Positions 3,282-21,323 of a DNA stretch of 43,667 nucleotides are shown piece by piece (position 1 is the first letter of the stretch; each line of letters opens with the position of its first letter). The position numbers were made by a program, and so were the translations under genes. Source of the DNA: Ignavibacteria bacterium RIFOXYB12_FULL_35_14 (lineage in GTDB: Bacteria; Bacteroidota; Ignavibacteria; Ignavibacteriales; Ignavibacteriaceae); the NCBI GenBank assembly GCA_001803045.1, contig MHAR01000009.1, positions 1-43,667 of the forward strand, in the 5' to 3' direction. The notes beneath the pieces are model-generated. The model was not told where the DNA came from. It saw only the letters and a list, made by a program, of their open reading frames with translations, and made no database searches.

Positions 3282-4253
3282 TTACTCTTCAAAAACTTTT
3301 CTTACAAAATTAAATTCATCATCGCTTAGCGGTTTATCTGCACCATAAAGATTAGAGATAACTTGCTTAAGATTTCTAAATCCAGGAATCACCGATCCCA
3401 CAACTTTGTTATGAAGCATGTACTGCAAAGCCATTCTTGCCAATTCTTCATTCGATGATCCAAACTTTTCCTTTAGCTTGTCAATCTTTGGTTCAAGCTT
3501 AGCTAAATTTTCCGCAGTGAATCGAGTTGAGTTTGCACGATGATCTCCCGGCTCGAACTTTGGCGGATTTTTCTTATCATATTTTCCAAGAAGTAATCCC
3601 TGATGAACTGGACCAAAAGCAATGAACGAGATTTTATATTCATCCAACAATTTTCTTGTAGGAGTTTCTTCTTTTACAAAACGATCGTCAACTGCACTTG
3701 CAAAGCTTTGGATCACCTCGGGTTTTACTTTTGGAATCAGCTTTACAAAATCTTCATGTGAGTAGGCTGATTGCCCAATTATCCGGATCTTGCCCTCTTC
3801 TTTTAATTTATACATTACTTCGATTGCATCGTTAAGGTAAACGTCATTCTCTCCAAAATCCCCGTGATGGAAATAATAAAGATCAATGTAATCCCTGTTT
3901 AGATTTATTAGAGATTGTTCGCATTGATGCCGAATGTGTGCCGGTTCGTAAGCATGAACTGCAGTACCGGGAAACCATCCGATTTTTGTTGCAATAATAA
4001 ATTTGTTTGTCCGCTTTCCAAGAACTCGTGCAAGCATTCTTTCTGCTCGACCATTGCCATAAACGTCAGCATTATCGAAATGATTTACACCATGATCAAT
4101 TGCATAAAATATTGCTTGCTTTATTTCATGCTCATCAACATTTGCCCAGCCGTTTGGAACACCGTTAACCCAATTGAGTCCACCCATTGTCCAGCAGCCG
4201 AGACTAATTTCGGAGACCTCAACATTTGTCTTTCCAAGTTTTCTGTATTTCAT
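3282..4253 (-). CDS. Aldo/keto reductase
   Basis: This 323-residue protein has the full (beta/alpha)8 aldo/keto reductase pattern. LGKTNVEVSEISLGCWTMGG at the N-terminus is typical of the family. The catalytic tetrad appears as Asp60 and Tyr65 (HFDNADVYG), Lys90 (ATKIG) and His129 (LYYFHHGD). A late segment near 255-300 (EELARMALQYML...VGSVIPGFRN) matches the NADP(H)-binding end of the barrel. It should reduce aldehydes or ketones with NADPH in the cytoplasm; the substrate cannot be read from sequence. It is the last gene of a three-gene minus-strand operon, 17 bases after the secreted histidine-protein gene. The N-terminus aligns naturally from this ATG. Confidence 0.93.
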   Translation of the reverse strand: MKYRKLGKTNVEVSEISLGCWTMGGLNWVNGVPNGWANVDEHEIKQAIFYAIDHGVNHFDNADVYGNGRAERMLARVLGKRTNKFIIATKIGWFPGTAVHAYEPAHIRHQCEQSLINLNRDYIDLYYFHHGDFGENDVYLNDAIEVMYKLKEEGKIRIIGQSAYSHEDFVKLIPKVKPEVIQSFASAVDDRFVKEETPTRKLLDEYKISFIAFGPVHQGLLLGKYDKKNPPKFEPGDHRANSTRFTAENLAKLEPKIDKLKEKFGSSNEELARMALQYMLHNKVVGSVIPGFRNLKQVISNLYGADKPLSDDEFNFVRKVFEE

Positions 4254-4270
4254 TTTAAACTCACATTTTT

Positions 4271-4981
4271 TTATTCGAAAATTGCTTCAAGATTTTGATA
4301 CTTTGTATGCATGTTTTCAACAGCGGCATCAATGCTAATTTTATTATTTGCTTTAACTCTTTTCTTAAGATCCATTGCTGAAGTTAAAAGCTCTGCGGCT
4401 GCTAAAGTGAATGCATCTTTTTTTAATTCGAGTCTGGCGGGAAGTTTTGATTTAGTTACTGCCTTAGCTTTTTTTATTAACGTATCGGTTACTTTCCCGA
4501 GTTTTTTGTAATTCTTGTTCGGAAGATAGTCGTGATAAACGACATAAAGAGTTTTATGAAATTCGTCTATCTCCTTCAAAACAGGACGAATGGTTCTAAC
4601 CAGCATTTCATATTTTGAGTGAAGATTCTCAGCAGCTTTCAACAGTCCTTCATTATCATCTGCTAGTGCATATTTTTTGTAATCTTCTACCGAAGCTTGA
4701 AATTGCATAACATTCTCATTCCATTTTAATTGCTTGTCTCTTTGAATACCCGGCAGTGTTGCAGAATAGACAGCGTTGGCTTTAAGATTTACATCATCAA
4801 CCATTTTTCTAAGTGCATCATAATCTTTTGAAGGATACGCTGTATGCCAAATCGGGTAAATAACTTCGTGAAAAGCTTCAAGCTCGGGAACTTTCCACAC
4901 CGTGTCCTGAGTTTGACTTTTGGATAATGTAACCATAACAAGCGATGTTAGTAGCGCAATAAGCAATTTTTGATGATTCAT
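4271..4981 (-). CDS. Secreted tandem-duplicated histidine-conserved helical protein
   Basis: I do not recognise a named family. This start was chosen because the ATG at 4981 gives a clean signal peptide (MNHQKLLIALLTSLVMVTLS, cleavage near KSQ) and has an AGAGAGG ribosome binding site. An upstream in-frame ATG would overlap the preceding gene. The 236-residue product is two copies of a ~104-residue helical unit. FHEVIYPIWHTAYPSKDY (37-54) matches FHKTLYVVYHDYLPNKNY (141-158), and ENLHSKYEML (118-127) matches ENMHTKYQNL (222-231). His38, His46 and His121 recur exactly 104 residues later as His142, His150 and His225. This pattern suggests a periplasmic helical bundle binding metal or haem, but that is inference. 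It lies 16 bases after the YjbR-like gene and 17 before the aldo/keto reductase. Confidence 0.8.
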   Translation of the reverse strand: MNHQKLLIALLTSLVMVTLSKSQTQDTVWKVPELEAFHEVIYPIWHTAYPSKDYDALRKMVDDVNLKANAVYSATLPGIQRDKQLKWNENVMQFQASVEDYKKYALADDNEGLLKAAENLHSKYEMLVRTIRPVLKEIDEFHKTLYVVYHDYLPNKNYKKLGKVTDTLIKKAKAVTKSKLPARLELKKDAFTLAAAELLTSAMDLKKRVKANNKISIDAAVENMHTKYQNLEAIFE

Positions 4982-4997
4982 TTTATTTACCTCTCTT

Positions 4998-5387
4998 TTA
5001 ATATGATTTTTTGCGATGCTTTCCGTGCTTGGAATAGCGTGCTGCCAGTTTTTCTTTCTCTTTTTTTGATAAGCCGCCAACAACCAATTCGTATGAATGA
5101 TCTATCCACTCTTTAATTAGTCTGGGTGAAATGCTGCTTCCAAGTTCAACCGTGTTCCAATGAGTTTTGTTCATGTGATAACCTGGGGTTACGGCATCGT
5201 ATCTTTCCCGGAGTTCAACAGCTTTTTCCGGATCGCATTTTAAGTTTATGCTGCAAGGCGGAGTTAAATTTGTAATTGCAAAAATCTTACCTATCACTTT
5301 GTAAACGGGAGAATCTTCATCAAAAGGAAGTTCTTCAGTTACACCCTTTTTATGCAGACAATAATTTCTAATTGACTCAATATCCAT
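4998..5387 (-). CDS. MmcQ/YjbR family protein
   Basis: This 129-residue cytoplasmic protein matches the YjbR (CyaY-like fold, PF04237) pattern. It starts IESIRNYCLHKKGVTEELPF, then has a KVIGKIFAIT strand, a SINLKCDPEKAVELRERY segment, TPGYHMNKTHWNTVEL and IKEWIDHSYELVVGGL. The strong GYHMNKTHWNTV block is diagnostic. The family is often labelled DNA-binding because of its double-wing fold, but its function is unproven. It is first in a three-gene operon and ends 16 bases before the secreted histidine-protein gene. The C-terminus is very basic (KLAARYSKHGKHRKKSY). Confidence 0.9.
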   Translation of the reverse strand: MDIESIRNYCLHKKGVTEELPFDEDSPVYKVIGKIFAITNLTPPCSINLKCDPEKAVELRERYDAVTPGYHMNKTHWNTVELGSSISPRLIKEWIDHSYELVVGGLSKKEKEKLAARYSKHGKHRKKSY

Positions 5388-14177: not shown

Positions 14178-15947
14178 ATGAACAACTTCAGAGAAAAAGC
14201 AAACTTCATTTGGTCAATTGCTGACTTACTAAGAGGACACTATAAACAAGCCGATTACGGTAAAGTAATTCTTCCGTTTACCGTTCTCAGAAGATTGGAT
14301 ATTATTCTAACACCAACCAAAAAACAAGTCCTCGAAGCATACAAAAAGCATAAAGACAAAAAACCCGAGGTGTTAGAACCTATCCTTAACGGTATAGCCA
14401 AAGTAAAATTCCATAACCACAGTAAGTTTGATTTTAACGAGCTTGCAAAAGACCATAATAATGTTGCTGCCAATCTTCGTAATTACATAAATGGTTTCTC
14501 AATTAGTGCCAGAGAAATAATTGATTACTTCAGCTTTGAAGATCAAATAAAAAAACTTGATGAATATGATTTACTCTATCTGGTGATTAAACATTTTGCG
14601 GAAGCAAAAGATAAATTTGAAGTAAAAGAACCGATGGAGATGGGCTATATCTTCGAAGAACTAATACGCAAGTTTGCAGAAATTTCAAATGAAACTGCCG
14701 GAGAACACTTTACACCGCGTGAAGTAATTCGCTTAATGGTTAATATTCTTTTTGCTAATGATAAAGATATTCTAAGAAAAGAGGGAATAGTTAAAACATT
14801 GTACGATCCGGCTGGTGGTACCGGTGGTATGCTTTCTATTGCTGATGAATATCTGCATTACTTAAATCCTGGTGCACGATTAGAACTTTTTGGGCAAGAA
14901 ATAAATCCAGAATCTTACGCTATCTGTAAATCTGATATGCTTATAAAAGGTCAAAACCCTGCCAACATAAAATTTGGAAACAGCTTCAGTCAAGATGGTT
15001 TAGAAGACGAAAAGTTCGATTATATGCTCAGTAATCCTCCCTTTGGTGTAGATTGGAAAAAAGCACAAAAATTTATTACGGATGAATACGATAATAAAGG
15101 TTTTGCTGGACGGTTTGGTGCTGGCTTACCATCAATTAGTGATGGATCACTTCTTTTCCTGCAGCATATGATAAGTAAAATGAAACGCAGTGGAGGAGGA
15201 AGTCGCATTGCAATTGTCTTTAACGGCTCACCACTTTTCAGTGGTGGAGCCGGAAGTGGTCCAAGCGATATCCGCAAATGGATAATTGAAAACGATCTGC
15301 TTGAAGCGATCATAGCAATGCCGGATCAATTATTCTATAATACCGGTATTTCAACATATTTTTGGATCGTTACCGATAGGAAAAAAACGGAACGAAAAGG
15401 AAAAGTGCAGTTAATAAATGCAACTGGAAATGATTGGGGAGAAGGTGACAAGAATAATCCATTTTATATTAAAATGATGCGCAGTCTCGGCAATAAAAGA
15501 AAAGAAATCGGTGATGGAAGAGATGGCAAGCCTGACCAAATAAAAACCATAACGGAAATTTATGAAGCATTTGAAGAAGGAATTTACTGTAAGATTTTTG
15601 ATAACGAAGATTTTGGCTACCAAAGAATTACAGTTGAAAGACCAAAACGAAATGAAAACGGTGTCATTGAATACGATAAAAAAGGCAACCCAATTCCCGA
15701 TGCTGATTTAAGAGATTTTGAAAATGTTCCTCTCAAAGACGATGTTGAAAGATATTTCAAGCGTGAAGTTTTACCACACCAGCCAGATGCCTGGATTGAC
15801 CATAGCAAAACCAAAATTGGTTACGAAATAAACTTTACCAAGTATTTTTATAAATACAAACCTTTGAGAAGTCTTGAAGAAATTCGCAAAGATATTCTTG
15901 CTTTAGAAAAAGAAACTGAAGGTATGATAAGGGAAGTTATTGAATGA
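14178..15947 (+). CDS. hsdM: Type I restriction-modification DNA methyltransferase subunit
   Basis: This 589-residue N6-adenine methyltransferase is the modification subunit of a type I system. An N-terminal helical domain (IWSIADLLRGHYKQADYGKV, VLRRLD) is followed by the catalytic domain. S-adenosylmethionine motif I is DPAGGTGG at 210-217, and the catalytic motif IV is NPPF at 286-289. GEHFTPREVIRLM is another hallmark. It works as M2S1 with HsdS for methylation and adds HsdR for restriction. It is the first gene of a five-gene operon and overlaps hsdS by the ATGA at 15944-15947. All key residues are present, so it should be active. Confidence 0.97.
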   Translation: MNNFREKANFIWSIADLLRGHYKQADYGKVILPFTVLRRLDIILTPTKKQVLEAYKKHKDKKPEVLEPILNGIAKVKFHNHSKFDFNELAKDHNNVAANLRNYINGFSISAREIIDYFSFEDQIKKLDEYDLLYLVIKHFAEAKDKFEVKEPMEMGYIFEELIRKFAEISNETAGEHFTPREVIRLMVNILFANDKDILRKEGIVKTLYDPAGGTGGMLSIADEYLHYLNPGARLELFGQEINPESYAICKSDMLIKGQNPANIKFGNSFSQDGLEDEKFDYMLSNPPFGVDWKKAQKFITDEYDNKGFAGRFGAGLPSISDGSLLFLQHMISKMKRSGGGSRIAIVFNGSPLFSGGAGSGPSDIRKWIIENDLLEAIIAMPDQLFYNTGISTYFWIVTDRKKTERKGKVQLINATGNDWGEGDKNNPFYIKMMRSLGNKRKEIGDGRDGKPDQIKTITEIYEAFEEGIYCKIFDNEDFGYQRITVERPKRNENGVIEYDKKGNPIPDADLRDFENVPLKDDVERYFKREVLPHQPDAWIDHSKTKIGYEINFTKYFYKYKPLRSLEEIRKDILALEKETEGMIREVIE

Positions 15948-17191
15948 ACAAATACCCCAAATACAAACTCGCCGGTGTTGAATGGATTGGTGATATTCCC
16001 GAACATTGGGAAGTTGAAAGAACAAAATGGGTATTTTCAGAAAGCAAACTTAGGAATAGAGAATTAAAGTATGTGGACGAAGATTTATTATCAGTTTCCG
16101 AATACTATGGTGTTGCAAAGCGTAGAGAAATAATTGATAATAACGATATTTTAAATCGTGCTGAATCACTATCAGAAAATAAAATAGTTATTAAAGGTGA
16201 ATTAGTTATAAATATAATGTTAGCTTGGAAGAAAGGACTTGGAATATCTGATCATAACGGAATTGTAAGTCCTTCGTATTGTGTTTTTAAATTACTTGTT
16301 GACAAAGGTGATCCGAAATTCTTTCACTACTTATATCGTACAAATTTGTATGCAGAGGTATTTAGACAAAACTCAAGAGGGATTATTGATTCAAGACTAC
16401 GATTATATCCCGAAGAATTTTTTAATATAATTACTATAGTTCCGTCACCAGAAGAACAAACCGCCATTGCCAATTTTCTTGATGAAAAAACTGCACAGAT
16501 AGACAAACTAATTACAAACAAACAAAAGCTAATTGAACTCCTTAAAGAAGAGCGCACTGCAATAATTAACCAAGCAGTTACACGCGGTATTGTCCCCAAT
16601 GTTAAACTTAAACCAAGTGGAATAGAATGGCTCGGCAACATCCCCGAACATTGGGCAGTGAAGAAGTTGAAGTATATGGCAAAGTTAAAAAGTGGCGAAT
16701 CGATAACTTCTGATAATATCAGAGAAGCGGATGAATACGCTGTTTACGGTGGCAATGGTTTAAGAGGATATACTTCAACTTATACTCATGATGGAGATTA
16801 TATTCTTATTGGTAGACAAGGGGCATTATGTGGAAATATTAATTACGCTTTTGGTAAATTTTTTGCGTCCGAGCATGCTGTTGTTGTAACAAGATTCAAT
16901 GATGAACATATTTTTTGGTTAGGAGAACTGCTTAGATCAATGAACCTAAATCAATATTCGATTTCAGCAGCACAACCTGGGTTGTCAGTAGAAAGGATCC
17001 AAAATTTATCAATTCCATATCCACAAATAGATGAACAAGAATTGATTGGAAAACACATCGAAACCGAAACAAAAAGAATAGACAACACAATTTCCAAAAT
17101 AGAAAGAGAAATTGAGCTGCTGCAAGAATATCGCACAGCGTTAATAAGTGAAGTAGTAACGGGAAAAATCGATGTGCGAAATACAGTGTAA
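15944..17191 (+). CDS. hsdS: Type I restriction-modification specificity subunit
   Basis: This 415-residue protein has two target-recognition domains, each opened by a near-identical block: VEWIGDIPEHW at residues 11-21 and IEWLGNIPEHW at about 227-237. Each is closed by a conserved helical spacer: PSPEEQTAIANFLDEKTAQI...INQAVTRGI in the middle, and IDEQELIGKHIETETKRI...ISEVVTGKI at the end. Each domain reads one half of a bipartite DNA site, and the helices set the gap and hold HsdM. The repeated blocks are also similar in DNA (CCCGAACATTGGG at 15998 and 16643), which could allow domain exchange. It is translationally coupled to hsdM. The target sequence cannot be predicted by eye. Confidence 0.96.
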   Translation: MNKYPKYKLAGVEWIGDIPEHWEVERTKWVFSESKLRNRELKYVDEDLLSVSEYYGVAKRREIIDNNDILNRAESLSENKIVIKGELVINIMLAWKKGLGISDHNGIVSPSYCVFKLLVDKGDPKFFHYLYRTNLYAEVFRQNSRGIIDSRLRLYPEEFFNIITIVPSPEEQTAIANFLDEKTAQIDKLITNKQKLIELLKEERTAIINQAVTRGIVPNVKLKPSGIEWLGNIPEHWAVKKLKYMAKLKSGESITSDNIREADEYAVYGGNGLRGYTSTYTHDGDYILIGRQGALCGNINYAFGKFFASEHAVVVTRFNDEHIFWLGELLRSMNLNQYSISAAQPGLSVERIQNLSIPYPQIDEQELIGKHIETETKRIDNTISKIEREIELLQEYRTALISEVVTGKIDVRNTV

Positions 17192-17258
17192 TTGTTCATT
17201 CCATTTGCTATTTTTAATAAAAAACTAATTACCTTTCCTTTGAAGAAAAGAGGAAGAA

Positions 17259-17933
17259 ATGAAAACAATTTCATATAAAAACGAAATAGGTTTTGGTATT
17301 TATACCATACCTGATATAAGCCGCTTATTGAAGGTAGACCGAAGAAAGGTTACCCGATATATCTCCGAATATTGGGATGAAAAAATTGGACGTAAACTTT
17401 TTAGTGACACATATTCCTGGAGTGTTAATCAGAGGAATAAAGCAGTAAACTTTTATGTTCTTATAGAGCTTTTTACTTTCTTCAAATTACAAGAGATTGG
17501 AGTTAGAGCAAAAACAATTCTTAAGGCAAGAGGAAGCATTTCAAAAGAATTGGGTTTTGATTACCCTTTCGCATCATCTCAACTATTAACCGATGGTAAA
17601 AAAATTTGGTATCAGTTTGAAGACGATATCGTTAACGCAGATGGTACTAGCCAAACCAACTTTGTACAAATTATTGAAAGTTTTGCTTCTAAAGTTGATT
17701 TCCTTGATAACAGCTTAGCACAAAGACTCTGGCCATTCGGTAAAGACAGAAACATTGTTGTCGACCCGCATCATCAATTTGGTCAACCAGTCATTAAAGG
17801 AACAAATATTAATGCAGAAGTAATATTCTCAATGTTCAAAAGCGGAGAACCAACATCTTCTCTTGCTATTCTCTATGATCTCACCGAGGCAGAAATAAAC
17901 GATGCTATTAATTTCTACCGATCTGCAGCGTAA
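17259..17933 (+). CDS. DUF433 antitoxin-like protein with N-terminal helix-turn-helix
   Basis: This 224-residue protein begins with a MerR/HTH-like segment (IYTIPDISRLLKVDRRKVTR, about 15-40). A middle region includes ELFTFFKLQEIGVRAKTILK. It ends in a DUF433 domain (about 165-222: NIVVDPHHQFGQPVIKGTNI, then SLAILYDLTEAEINDAINFY). DUF433 proteins are the usual partners of DUF5615 PIN-like proteins and are regarded as antitoxins. The HTH probably lets it bind its own operator. It starts 67 bases after hsdS, with AAGAGGAAGAA as ribosome binding site, and its stop overlaps the next ATG by one base (TAATG). It sits inside the hsd operon, so repression here could also affect hsdR. Antitoxin activity is inferred from family and context. 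Confidence 0.87.
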   Translation: MKTISYKNEIGFGIYTIPDISRLLKVDRRKVTRYISEYWDEKIGRKLFSDTYSWSVNQRNKAVNFYVLIELFTFFKLQEIGVRAKTILKARGSISKELGFDYPFASSQLLTDGKKIWYQFEDDIVNADGTSQTNFVQIIESFASKVDFLDNSLAQRLWPFGKDRNIVVDPHHQFGQPVIKGTNINAEVIFSMFKSGEPTSSLAILYDLTEAEINDAINFYRSAA

Positions 17934-18328
17934 TGGAAATCTTTCTTGACGAGAATCTTTCTGAGTATGTTGCGGATGCATTCAATTCTTTAAATAAAGG
18001 TTATTTCAGAGATGTTCAAGTCTTTTCTACTAAAGTCAAATTTGGTAAAGGCGCACCAGACGAAGAGATAATACCAGAAATTGGTCAAATTAGTGGCATT
18101 CTAGTTACTCAAGATGTTAATATTCATAGAATGAAATTACAGTATAACCTTTGTTCAAAATTTAACCTGGGTATTTTTTTTCTCGCATTGCCTAAAGATC
18201 AAAATAAACATTGGGAAATTGTTAAACTTTTAGTTAATAACTGGAAAGAAATAATTCATAGATCTGAAAAAGAAAAGAAACCTTTCGCATTTAGGATTCG
18301 TGTGCGAGGAAAAATGGAGAAATTATAG
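17933..18328 (+). CDS. DUF5615 PIN-like protein, probable toxin
   Basis: This 131-residue protein starts MEIFLDENLSEYVADAF, the signature of the DUF5615 (Mut7-C/PIN-like) family. Acidic residues in the expected places for a metal-dependent nuclease are Asp6/Glu7, Asp43/Glu44 in GAPDEEII and Asp61 in LVTQDVNIH. PIN toxins cleave RNA and are held in check by a cognate antitoxin, here the DUF433 protein. Start and stop are both shared or nearly so: the ATG overlaps the antitoxin stop, and hsdR begins one base after this stop. The C-terminus is rich in Lys and Arg. The nuclease role is inferred; a role as accessory restriction effector cannot be excluded. Confidence 0.85.
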   Translation: MEIFLDENLSEYVADAFNSLNKGYFRDVQVFSTKVKFGKGAPDEEIIPEIGQISGILVTQDVNIHRMKLQYNLCSKFNLGIFFLALPKDQNKHWEIVKLLVNNWKEIIHRSEKEKKPFAFRIRVRGKMEKL

Positions 18329-18329
18329 G

Positions 18330-21323
18330 ATGAGCAATTCCATTCATTTAGAATCCACTTTTGAATCAGCGATTATTGAAGGATTAACATCAATCGGTTG
18401 GTTTGAAGGTAATGCTGATGATTTCTGTAACGATCTTTCCTTTGATAAAAAAGCTATACTCTCATTTATCCAAACATCTCAACCCAAAGAATGGGAACTG
18501 CTGAAGTCATACTACAAGGAAGAATCAGAAAATAAATTCATTCAACGCCTTTTTAAGGAATTGGATTTAAGAGGAATGCTCGATGTTATCAGGCATGGTA
18601 TAACGGATAGCGGTATTAAATTCAAACTTGCTTACTTTAAACCTGATAGTGGACTGAATCCTGATACACAACGGCAATACGGATATAACAGACACTATGT
18701 AACACGACAAGTCTTCTTCTCTTCCAAAAACAATAAAAGTATTGATCTTCTTCTTTCGTTAAATGGTCTTCCAGTTGCAACAATGGAATTAAAAAATCAT
18801 TTTACCGGACAGCGAGTAAGCGATGCTATCGAGCAATATAAAACCAGTCGCGATCCGAAAGAATTATTATTCCAATTTAAGAAAAGGGCTTTAGTACATT
18901 TTACTGTTGATCCCGATGAAGTTTATTTTACCACTAAGCTTGAAAGTTTTGGGACAAAATTTTTTCCCTTCAATAAAGGATATAACAACGGAGCGGGTAA
19001 TCCGCCAGCGAAAGACTATACAACTTACCGCTCCTCATATTTCTGGGAGGACATTTTATCCATTGATAGCTGGACAGAAATAATTGCCCGATACATTCAC
19101 CTTCAAAAAGAAGAATACCAAGTTGAAGGTAAAAAGTATTACAAAGAAACAATGCTCTTTCCTCGCTTTCACCAATTAGATGTGGTCAGAAAATTAATTG
19201 CGGATGCTAAGTTAAACGGAAGTGGAAGAAGATATTTAATCGAACATTCAGCCGGAAGCGGTAAAAGTAATTCTATTGCTTGGCTGGCTTATCGTTTATC
19301 TTCTCTTTATGATCCTTTTGATAAAAAGATATTTGATTCGATAATCGTTATAACTGATAGAAACGTACTTGATCAACAACTTCAAAATACCATTTACCAG
19401 TTTGAACATAAAACCGGTGTTGTTCTACGTATCGAAGTTGATTCAAAACAATTAGCTGAGGCAATTACAAATGGTATAAGTATTATAATAACTACGCTTC
19501 AAAAATTTCCTTTCGCCTTAAATCATCTTACCGAAATACCAAACCGTAATTATGCGGTAATTATTGATGAAGCACACAGCAGTCAAGGCGGTGAAGCAAG
19601 TCGTAAAATGACAGAAGCATTAGTTGGCAAAAATATTTCTTTAGAAGAATCTGAAAAAGTAGAAAGTGAAATTGAAACCAGTTTTGCTGATGAAGATGAT
19701 TATATCCGGGAAATAATTCAGAAAAGAGGTCCGCAGAAGAATATAAGTTTATTTGCTTTTACCGCTACTCCAAAATCCAAAACACTTGAAGTCTTTGGGT
19801 ATAAAGATTCCGAAGGAAAACCAAGACCGTTCCATCTCTATTCAATGCGCCAAGCTATAGAAGAAGGTTTTATTATCGATGTATTAAAGAACTACACTAC
19901 GTATGAAACCTATTATCGCTTTTGTAAAACTATTGAGGACGATCCTTCCCTAAATAAAAGAAAAGCAACAAAAGCGATTGCAAGATTCGCCTCCTTCCAT
20001 CCCACAAACCTTGCACAAAAAACGGAAGTGATGGTTGAGCATTTCCGTCAAGTTACTATGAAAAAAATAGGCGGTAAAGCTAAAGCAATGGTTGTAACTG
20101 CGTCACGTAAACATGCTTTAAAATTTTATTTTGAATTTAAGGATTATATCAAGGAGAAGGGTTATACCAACATTAGACCGCTTGTTGCCTTTTCGGGTTC
20201 GGTTATAGATGATCTGTTCCCCGAAGGTGTTACAGAAGTGCAATTAAATAAATTTGGTGAGAAGGAATTGCCCGAGAAATTTGCAACTGGTGAGTTTCAA
20301 GTTTTACTTGTTGCTGATAAATATCAATATGGTTTTGATCAACCTTTATTGCATACAATGTATGTTGATAAAAAATTATCGGGCGTAAGAGCTGTTCAAA
20401 CACTTTCTCGGTTGAATAGAACTTATCCTGGCAAAGAAGATACTTTTGTTTTGGACTTTGCGAATGACCGGCAAACAATCATAGATTCATTTCAGCCCTA
20501 CTATGAAATGACCACTATAACCGAATCAACTGATCCTAACCATCTTTATAATCTGAAAGGTAAAATTGATTCAGCCCAAGTCTATTATCAATCAGAAGTA
20601 GATGCTTTTTCTAAGGTATTTTATAAACCTGGCAGTGCATCAGTAAGAGATCAAGGTAAGTTATATGCTTATATCGATCCGGCTGTTGATCGTTATAAAA
20701 AGTTGGAAGAGGAGCCACAAGATGAGTTTAAGAAATCGTTGACATCTTTTGTTCGTCTCTATTCTTTTCTATCCCAGATAATGCCGTTTCAAGATGTTGA
20801 ATTAGAAAAATTATATTCATTTGGAAGGTTCTTATTAACTAAACTTCCCAAAGTTGATTACACAGAACGGTTAAAATTAGATAATGAAGTAGCTCTGGAG
20901 TATTATCGATTACAAAAAATTGCTGAGGGTGATTTAGTTCTTCAAGTGCAAGGTGAATATGGTCTTAATCCTGTCACCGAAGCCGGAATAAGCAGACCAA
21001 AAGATGAAAAAGATAAACTTTCTAATATTATTCATCTTCTAAATGAAAAATACGGTACTGATTTTACCGATGCTGATAGATTATACTTTGAGCAGCTTGA
21101 ACAAGCGTTATATGAAAGTAATGAACTAAAAATTAGAGCTAAAAATAATCCGATAGAAAATTTCAAATATGCTTTTGATGAAGTATTCATACAAACACTG
21201 ATCGACCGTATGGACGCAAACCAAGAAATCTTTGACAAGATAATGCTCAATTCTGAATTTAAGAAGGATGTAGTGGAATGGTTAACGAAGAAAATCTACA
21301 AAAGAATTAAAGATGAGAACTAG
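18330..21323 (+). CDS. hsdR: Type I restriction enzyme endonuclease/translocase subunit
   Basis: This 997-residue motor-nuclease cuts unmodified DNA after ATP-driven translocation. The nuclease domain shows Asp139, then Glu153-x-Lys155 (LPVATMELKN), a PD-(D/E)xK core. The superfamily 2 helicase has Walker A AGSGKS at 308-313, DEAH at 413-416, FAFTATP, and motif VI as TLSRLNRTYPG. A helical C-terminal region for binding the methylase core follows. I chose ATG 18330, one base after the preceding stop, over an in-frame GTG at 18300 inside the preceding gene; GGAG at about 18315 could serve as ribosome binding site. The gene is intact and ends the five-gene operon. Confidence 0.96.
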   Translation: MSNSIHLESTFESAIIEGLTSIGWFEGNADDFCNDLSFDKKAILSFIQTSQPKEWELLKSYYKEESENKFIQRLFKELDLRGMLDVIRHGITDSGIKFKLAYFKPDSGLNPDTQRQYGYNRHYVTRQVFFSSKNNKSIDLLLSLNGLPVATMELKNHFTGQRVSDAIEQYKTSRDPKELLFQFKKRALVHFTVDPDEVYFTTKLESFGTKFFPFNKGYNNGAGNPPAKDYTTYRSSYFWEDILSIDSWTEIIARYIHLQKEEYQVEGKKYYKETMLFPRFHQLDVVRKLIADAKLNGSGRRYLIEHSAGSGKSNSIAWLAYRLSSLYDPFDKKIFDSIIVITDRNVLDQQLQNTIYQFEHKTGVVLRIEVDSKQLAEAITNGISIIITTLQKFPFALNHLTEIPNRNYAVIIDEAHSSQGGEASRKMTEALVGKNISLEESEKVESEIETSFADEDDYIREIIQKRGPQKNISLFAFTATPKSKTLEVFGYKDSEGKPRPFHLYSMRQAIEEGFIIDVLKNYTTYETYYRFCKTIEDDPSLNKRKATKAIARFASFHPTNLAQKTEVMVEHFRQVTMKKIGGKAKAMVVTASRKHALKFYFEFKDYIKEKGYTNIRPLVAFSGSVIDDLFPEGVTEVQLNKFGEKELPEKFATGEFQVLLVADKYQYGFDQPLLHTMYVDKKLSGVRAVQTLSRLNRTYPGKEDTFVLDFANDRQTIIDSFQPYYEMTTITESTDPNHLYNLKGKIDSAQVYYQSEVDAFSKVFYKPGSASVRDQGKLYAYIDPAVDRYKKLEEEPQDEFKKSLTSFVRLYSFLSQIMPFQDVELEKLYSFGRFLLTKLPKVDYTERLKLDNEVALEYYRLQKIAEGDLVLQVQGEYGLNPVTEAGISRPKDEKDKLSNIIHLLNEKYGTDFTDADRLYFEQLEQALYESNELKIRAKNNPIENFKYAFDEVFIQTLIDRMDANQEIFDKIMLNSEFKKDVVEWLTKKIYKRIKDEN

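Follow-up and report, generated by a model that had tools for sequence, protein, structure and literature searches.

Why would a small bacterial protein keep the same three histidines twice in one chain? The question is posed by a gene in a 43,667-nucleotide stretch of DNA from Ignavibacteria bacterium RIFOXYB12_FULL_35_14, which was analysed whole and is referred to below as the window. The original prediction described the product as a secreted, internally duplicated protein of no named family, in which His38, His46 and His121 recur 104 residues later and suggest a metal or haem site in each half.

The duplicated protein and its gene

The gene lies on the minus strand (Table 1); frame 1 of the plus strand is broken by stops throughout 4271-4981. 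Histidines stand at residues 3, 38, 46, 121, 142, 150 and 225, the repeated ones falling into the pairs 38/142, 46/150 and 121/225, and the protein has zero cysteines. It is probably exported, judging by eye from its signal-peptide-like start.

The internal duplication is borne out. At an offset of 104 residues, 30 of 102 residue pairs are identical, against 2-14 at the remaining offsets between 95 and 114. The alignment of the two halves scores 135, a value reached in 0 of 2,000 shuffles (mean 28.7, sd 5.2, maximum 54), and comparison of the half 1 and half 2 profiles by hhalign (35 rows each) gives a probability of 99.6% and an E-value of 2.2e-24. The motifs FHxxxYxxxHxxxPxKxY and ENxHxKY are indeed found in each half. 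The absence of a named family likewise held: the window protein has an above-cut-off match in neither Pfam nor NCBIfam and nothing notable among PDB sequences. Matches obtained with the separate halves and with profiles against Pfam, NCBIfam and PDB sequences were weak only and were set aside, and among the open-licence PMC papers listed by literature searches, judged by titles and the starts of abstracts, none deals with this domain or with the superoxide dismutase (SOD) fusions considered below.

The gene had also been placed in an operon between a YjbR-like protein and an aldo/keto reductase. The gene order is correct, with 16 bases between the end of the YjbR gene and the gene of interest and the reductase gene starting 17 bases downstream of it, but the association is local. 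A YjbR cluster lies near 4 of 81 two-domain loci and a reductase directly 3' in 2 of the 73 with gene order printed (the window and L022), which rules out a conserved operon. The commonest neighbour cluster of the family occurs in at most 12 of 81 loci, and gene calling lost the two-domain gene to an opposite-strand frame in 8 of 81. Elsewhere in the window, plus-strand frames at 14178-21323 look by eye like a type I restriction-modification set (methylase, specificity and restriction subunits), with a short protein between.

Table 1. Window coordinates of the two-domain histidine protein gene, its parts and its neighbours
Feature	Position	Strand	Remarks
Two-domain histidine protein gene	4271..4981, including stop codon	-	236 aa; coding part 4274-4981
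Signal-peptide-like N terminus, about residues 1-23	4913..4981	-	By eye; low-confidence model helix 3-24
Half 1, residues 29-130, predicted four-helix bundle	4592..4897	-	Helices 32-48, 54-59 with 61-72, 78-106, 110-131
Half 2, residues 131-236, predicted four-helix bundle	4274..4591	-	Helices 136-152, 158-176, 182-210, 214-233
His38, helix 1 of half 1, invariant	4868..4870	-	82/82 covered rows
His46, helix 1 of half 1, invariant	4844..4846	-	82/82 covered rows
His121, helix 4 of half 1, invariant	4619..4621	-	83/83 rows
Glu125, helix 4 of half 1, invariant	4607..4609	-	83/83 rows; position of the single-domain fourth histidine
His142, helix 1 of half 2, counterpart of His38	4556..4558	-	83/83 rows
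His150, helix 1 of half 2, counterpart of His46	4532..4534	-	83/83 rows
His225, helix 4 of half 2, counterpart of His121	4307..4309	-	82/82 covered rows
YjbR-family gene, upstream neighbour	4998..5387	-	PF04237, 6.5e-31; functional link not implied
Aldo/keto reductase gene, downstream neighbour	3282..4253	-	PF00248, 2.5e-50; functional link not implied

Two-domain and single-domain relatives

A whole-protein search found matches in 17 of 59 close genomes (the window's own included; one match is a short fragment), and the best 80 of 92 relatives from a scan of genome contigs were retained. The record titles of the scan relatives name Ignavibacteria, Melioribacter, Bacteroidetes, Aminicenantes, Acidobacteria, Calditrichota and others, labels that may be wrong for what are metagenome bins. 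The 97 matching frames were reduced to 84 distinct ones and, with the fragment L017 dropped, to 83 aligned rows.

None of the six repeated histidines varies in any covered row of these 83 two-domain proteins (82 of 82 or 83 of 83). The contig-scan patterns contained His46, His142 and His150, so that the search itself accounts for part of their invariance. This bias does not touch His38, His121 or His225, and the whole-protein search, unbiased for all six, yielded 16 rows with the same invariance wherever covered. Besides the histidines, Glu125 (83 of 83), Glu118 (82 of 83), Trp45 (82 of 82 covered) and Pro50 (81 of 83) are fully or nearly invariant. The half 2 counterparts of the two glutamates vary: among the 83 proteins, position 222 is Glu in 48 and Asp in 17, and position 229 is Gln in 60 and Glu in 15.

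We also found single-domain relatives elsewhere in Bacteroidota, which carry the three histidines and a fourth that replaces Glu125/Gln229. A half-2 profile matched 22 of 296 genomes of the phylum (13 two-domain, 9 one-domain), and a profile of seven single domains matched 38 of 395 genomes, 28 of them at E < 1e-12, as well as 10 of 246 and 28 of 248 genomes in two orders; these four samples overlap, and G255, whose single-domain frame is split, is present in two of them and not in the fetched stretches. On the evidence of profile comparison (hhalign of 47 single domains, E 3.9e-14 against half 2 and 6.4e-10 against half 1), these proteins are homologous to the halves of the window protein. 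In the single domains the three repeated histidines are matched by H14, H22 and H95, and Gln229/Glu125 by H99, which lies four residues past the helix-4 histidine. No column of the single domains conserved at 70% or more is a helix-4 glutamate.

All four histidines are kept in 56 of 58 single-domain loci, 55 by alignment and one (L207, mis-cut) on reading. The other two, L234 and L235, come from one genus and read H,M,R,K and Q,M,K,K, with three and four histidines lost. These two (genomes G672 and G661) are SOD fusions whose C-terminal helical domain can still be aligned and whose SOD part keeps GGHYNH and WEHAY. A possible intermediate, L174 (genome G340), has the four histidines, and its stretch after the second histidine is closer to the two-domain family.

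When 35 half-1, 35 half-2 and 47 single domains are aligned, only three columns are invariant (117 of 117), all of them histidine, and the next best is Phe141 (102 of 117); helix-1 H-x7-H and helix-4 H occupy equivalent columns in all 117, a set whose single-domain part consists of site-bearing domains by choice. The 70 half rows represent 35 of the 83 proteins, at less than 55% identity and without long gaps. The 47 were drawn from the 58 single domains by leaving out L207 (envelope cut), L234 and L235 (motif lost) and eight others, mainly near-duplicates (L150, L152, L161-L163, L173, L223 and L228). A site built on the repeated histidines in each half, as originally proposed, is well backed by this conservation.

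Predicted fold and geometry of the putative sites

AlphaFold2, given 15 sequences, models the window protein as two four-helix sets (mean pLDDT 89.1, pTM 0.74), the fold of half 1 being taken from this full-length model and from homology to half 2. The single-domain model (pLDDT 93.7, pTM 0.86) has helices at 8-25, 30-48, 58-79 and 84-106. Neither model has a Foldseek match in the PDB at E <= 0.001. VIA-align 2 matches half 2 best to plant NDH and PsbQ subunits (Z 14.5, 13.7 and 12.9; 9grx_6 aligns over 100 residues with Z 14.5 and 1.9 Å), a Zn-containing cyanobacterial PsbQ structure is also present, and matches to cytochromes b562 and c' span Z 11.8-12.7 (cytochrome c' up to 12.6; b562 4er9 at 12.5, 2.5 Å, 99 aligned). 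Cytochrome b562 variants and b562-based fusions make up most of the nearest structures of the single-domain model, with no match at E <= 0.001 (4er9: Z 10.7, 2.8 Å, 97 aligned). Both the models and the structural matches are in line with the up-down four-helix bundle of cytochrome b562, but these Z scores fall within the tool's range for unrelated helical bundles, and we take shared shape alone from them: each half is modelled with the general form of cytochrome b562, cytochrome c' and PsbQ.

Given this fold and the weak b562 matches, the main rival to a metal ion is haem b, bound non-covalently in each half by two histidines; the protein would then be a duplicated b562-like electron or haem carrier, and the SOD fusions two-domain redox enzymes. 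In comparisons with the b562, c' and hemerythrin profiles, the window protein reaches no cut-off, and weak b562 and c' matches occur among its relatives. At E <= 0.1, Cytochrom_B562 is the most frequent family both for full proteins (5 of 15, best 1.5e-4) and for half 1 (10 of 35 members, best 5.3e-4, with the runner-up family at 2 of 35). Half 2 matches 125 families at this threshold, cytochrome c' in 5 of 35 members (best 8.8e-5) and Cytochrom_B562 in 4, but the unrelated TBCC_N is matched as often as cytochrome c' (5 of 35). The single-domain relatives show no b562 or c' trend at E <= 0.01; the best PDB match of their profile is a protein named cs074A (E 0.0022), and one of the 47 matches PsbQ (PF05757, E 0.0052), for which the window protein has no Pfam match. 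The window protein itself stays below every Pfam gathering cut-off, with no match to Cytochrom_B562 (PF07361) at E <= 1. Hemerythrin is likewise without a match to it at E <= 1 and is absent from the first 25 of 28 families matched by 15 members.

The residues themselves also argue against haem. The CxxCH motif for haem attachment in helix 4 is absent from all 83 two-domain and all 58 single-domain proteins. The haem ligands of cytochrome b562, Met7 in helix 1 and His102 in helix 4, near the open end, would correspond, by the alignment ranges of the 4er9 and BRIL rows, to about Ile138/Asp139 and Glu232 here. In single-domain relatives, the His-rich tails and neighbouring MbnP, SCO1 or YHS genes (below) suit metal ions better, and on balance we consider haem b unlikely.

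For the sites, a generic antiparallel model of two ideal helices was used, with the register set from the b562 row, alignment ranges and the b562 haem ligands, core residues picked by eye, and the handedness picked as the one that joins the b562 ligand positions (6.6 Å). In this model the CB-CB distances are 8.1 Å for 142-225, 8.7 Å for 142-229 and 6.6 Å for 225-229, against 12.4 Å for 150-225 and 13.1 Å for 142-150 on the same helix; with the opposite handedness, 142 and 225 are 16.1 Å apart and point away from each other. From bond lengths we estimate about 11.4 Å CB-CB as the greatest distance at which one ion can have two histidine ligands. By this limit, His38 and His46, eight residues apart on one helix, should not share one ion unless the helix is distorted; a kink is possible in half 1, since position 43 is often proline (57 of 83 two-domain proteins). 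The convergence of all three histidines of a half on a single ion, the other element of the original site proposal, is thus probably wrong as stated.

We favour a reading, to which we give a probability of roughly one half, in which each half would bind one transition-metal ion between helices 1 and 4. Half 1 would probably coordinate its ion through His38, His121 and Glu125; in half 2 the likely ligands would be His142 and His225, close to Gln229. His46/His150 may lie beside the site as second-sphere or second-site residues. The protein would act in the periplasm to sequester or carry metal, with copper as the best single guess. We read the histidines as a metal site because the three-histidine set is kept through duplication, fusion and divergence and is lost almost jointly in one genus, and because subfamilies differ in whether His, Glu or Gln stands one helical turn away. 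The misfit of His46/His150 in the two-helix model speaks against one shared three-histidine site, and the metal-ion reading itself is opposed by a fold that resembles haem proteins and by a geometry that depends on ideal helices, alignment register and a chosen handedness.

Gene context of the possible metal site, remaining alternatives and known systems

In 18 of the 58 single-domain loci (two of them with the histidines lost), the domain is the C-terminal part of an Fe/Mn SOD; one further locus has a DJ-1/PfpI fusion and 39 have neither, as called by BLAST against a single SOD part and a single DJ-1 part, with Pfam run on two SOD fusions and the DJ-1 fusion. Those starts of SOD fusions that were read look exported. 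Attachment to SODs in other bacteria probably marks the domain as a metal-handling module. A single Fe/Mn SOD gene is present in the window's genome, on a different contig. A plasmid search with an SOD fusion returned 179 records, none covering 80% of it, and the matches listed cover the SOD part. In L165 (genome G171), the single domain is fused to DJ-1/PfpI and lies beside MbnP, MbnH and DUF2911 genes.

Histidine-rich C-terminal tails (three or more His within the last 12 residues) occur in 10 of 58 single-domain and 0 of 83 two-domain proteins. Genes for MbnP, MbnH, YHS or SCO1 lie within a stretch of about 10 kb at 9 of 58 single-domain loci (MbnP at 6, MbnH at 6, YHS at 5 and SCO1 at 3) and in 0 of 40 control windows, with the family names checked on example proteins; the one-sided Fisher value of 0.0068 is indicative only, the markers having been picked after the loci were viewed and the 58 loci being related. 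The controls were random 10-kb windows from the same genomes on contigs longer than 60 kb, and some target stretches reach a contig end before the full 10 kb. Tails and neighbours point the same way as the conserved histidines, which is a further reason for the metal-site reading. The other 49 loci have none of the copper markers, and several lie, by eye, beside housekeeping-like genes. Ahead of one SOD fusion (L148) lie a partial efflux gene of CusA/CzcA-like type and genes for an efflux adaptor and two further membrane proteins; the adaptor-like neighbours of L227 and L229, considered as metal genes, look like general efflux adaptors and were left uncounted. A small CxGxC protein, without a Pfam match in the examples, is encoded at 9 of 58 loci (L147, L153, L172, L173, L206, L207, L217, L222 and L226), often with copper-type genes, and in 0 of 40 controls.

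Several observations tell against copper for the window protein in particular. Copper markers occur in 3 of 80 two-domain loci, each several genes away, and His-rich tails are absent from all 83 two-domain proteins. MbnP is without a match in the window's genome, and none of 59 relatives has one that reaches the cut-off. The COX1 phylogenetic profile is uninformative (present in 56 of 59 relatives). In two two-domain stretches, L046 and L075, genes resembling SCO1 and, by eye, PCuAC lie at a distance of about 3-6 kb.

It is also quite improbable that the domain binds no cofactor and that its histidines are structural or bind a ligand in a PsbQ- or sensor-like helical bundle. The top structural matches of half 2, plant NDH subunits and PsbQ, are haem-free, but three invariant histidines with nothing else invariant across three subfamilies are unusual for packing residues, and their joint loss in one genus and the His-rich tails of some single-domain relatives weigh the same way. 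A dinuclear metal or catalytic redox centre (for example diiron or dicopper, with Glu118 and Glu125) that removes peroxide or superoxide products, hence the SOD attachment, would suit the near-invariance of both glutamates in half 1, a His46 out of reach of the His38 site in a regular helix and the SOD and DJ-1 fusions, but we think it the least probable reading, given the looser half 2 positions 222 and 229, the single-domain columns lacking a conserved helix-4 glutamate and the missing hemerythrin match of the window protein.

Returning to a metal ion in each half, we place the window protein in an unnamed domain family whose single-copy members are partly SOD-fused or His-tailed. More tentatively, the domain may be an undescribed periplasmic module for copper or another metal that serves as a SOD partner by fusion or as a lone carrier, the window protein being a two-site version in which Glu or Gln takes the place of the fourth histidine. 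As part of the same reading, and with equal reserve, the module might extend through Bacteroidota and, by record titles, Ignavibacteria, Aminicenantes and Acidobacteria. If correct, this would name a metal-site domain that joins metal handling to extracytoplasmic superoxide removal in a large group of environmental bacteria, and would offer a compact duplicated scaffold in which a site of three His and Glu stands beside a twin of three His and Gln in one chain. Unannotated small exported proteins and SOD extensions would also become interpretable.

Among known systems, cytochrome b562, which is periplasmic, is a single four-helix bundle of about 105 residues, the form predicted here for each half, and gives weak Pfam and structural matches, whereas the window protein is duplicated, has its histidines deeper in the bundle, has no PF07361 match and, by alignment ranges, probably lacks the Met7/His102 pair. 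Cytochrome c' (PF01322) is alike in its four-helix bundle and weak half 2 matches, and differs by the CxxCH missing here. PsbQ and the chloroplast NDH lumenal subunits give the best structural score for half 2, with a sequence relation limited to the one single-domain match. CnrX-type periplasmic metal sensors have a helical periplasmic metal site with several histidines, and no such family is among the matches listed for the window protein or among the first 25 families for full-length members and for half 1. Fe/Mn SODs of the fused type carry a homologous C-terminal domain with the three histidines and a fourth; theirs is a single domain on an enzyme, whereas the window protein consists of two such domains and no SOD.
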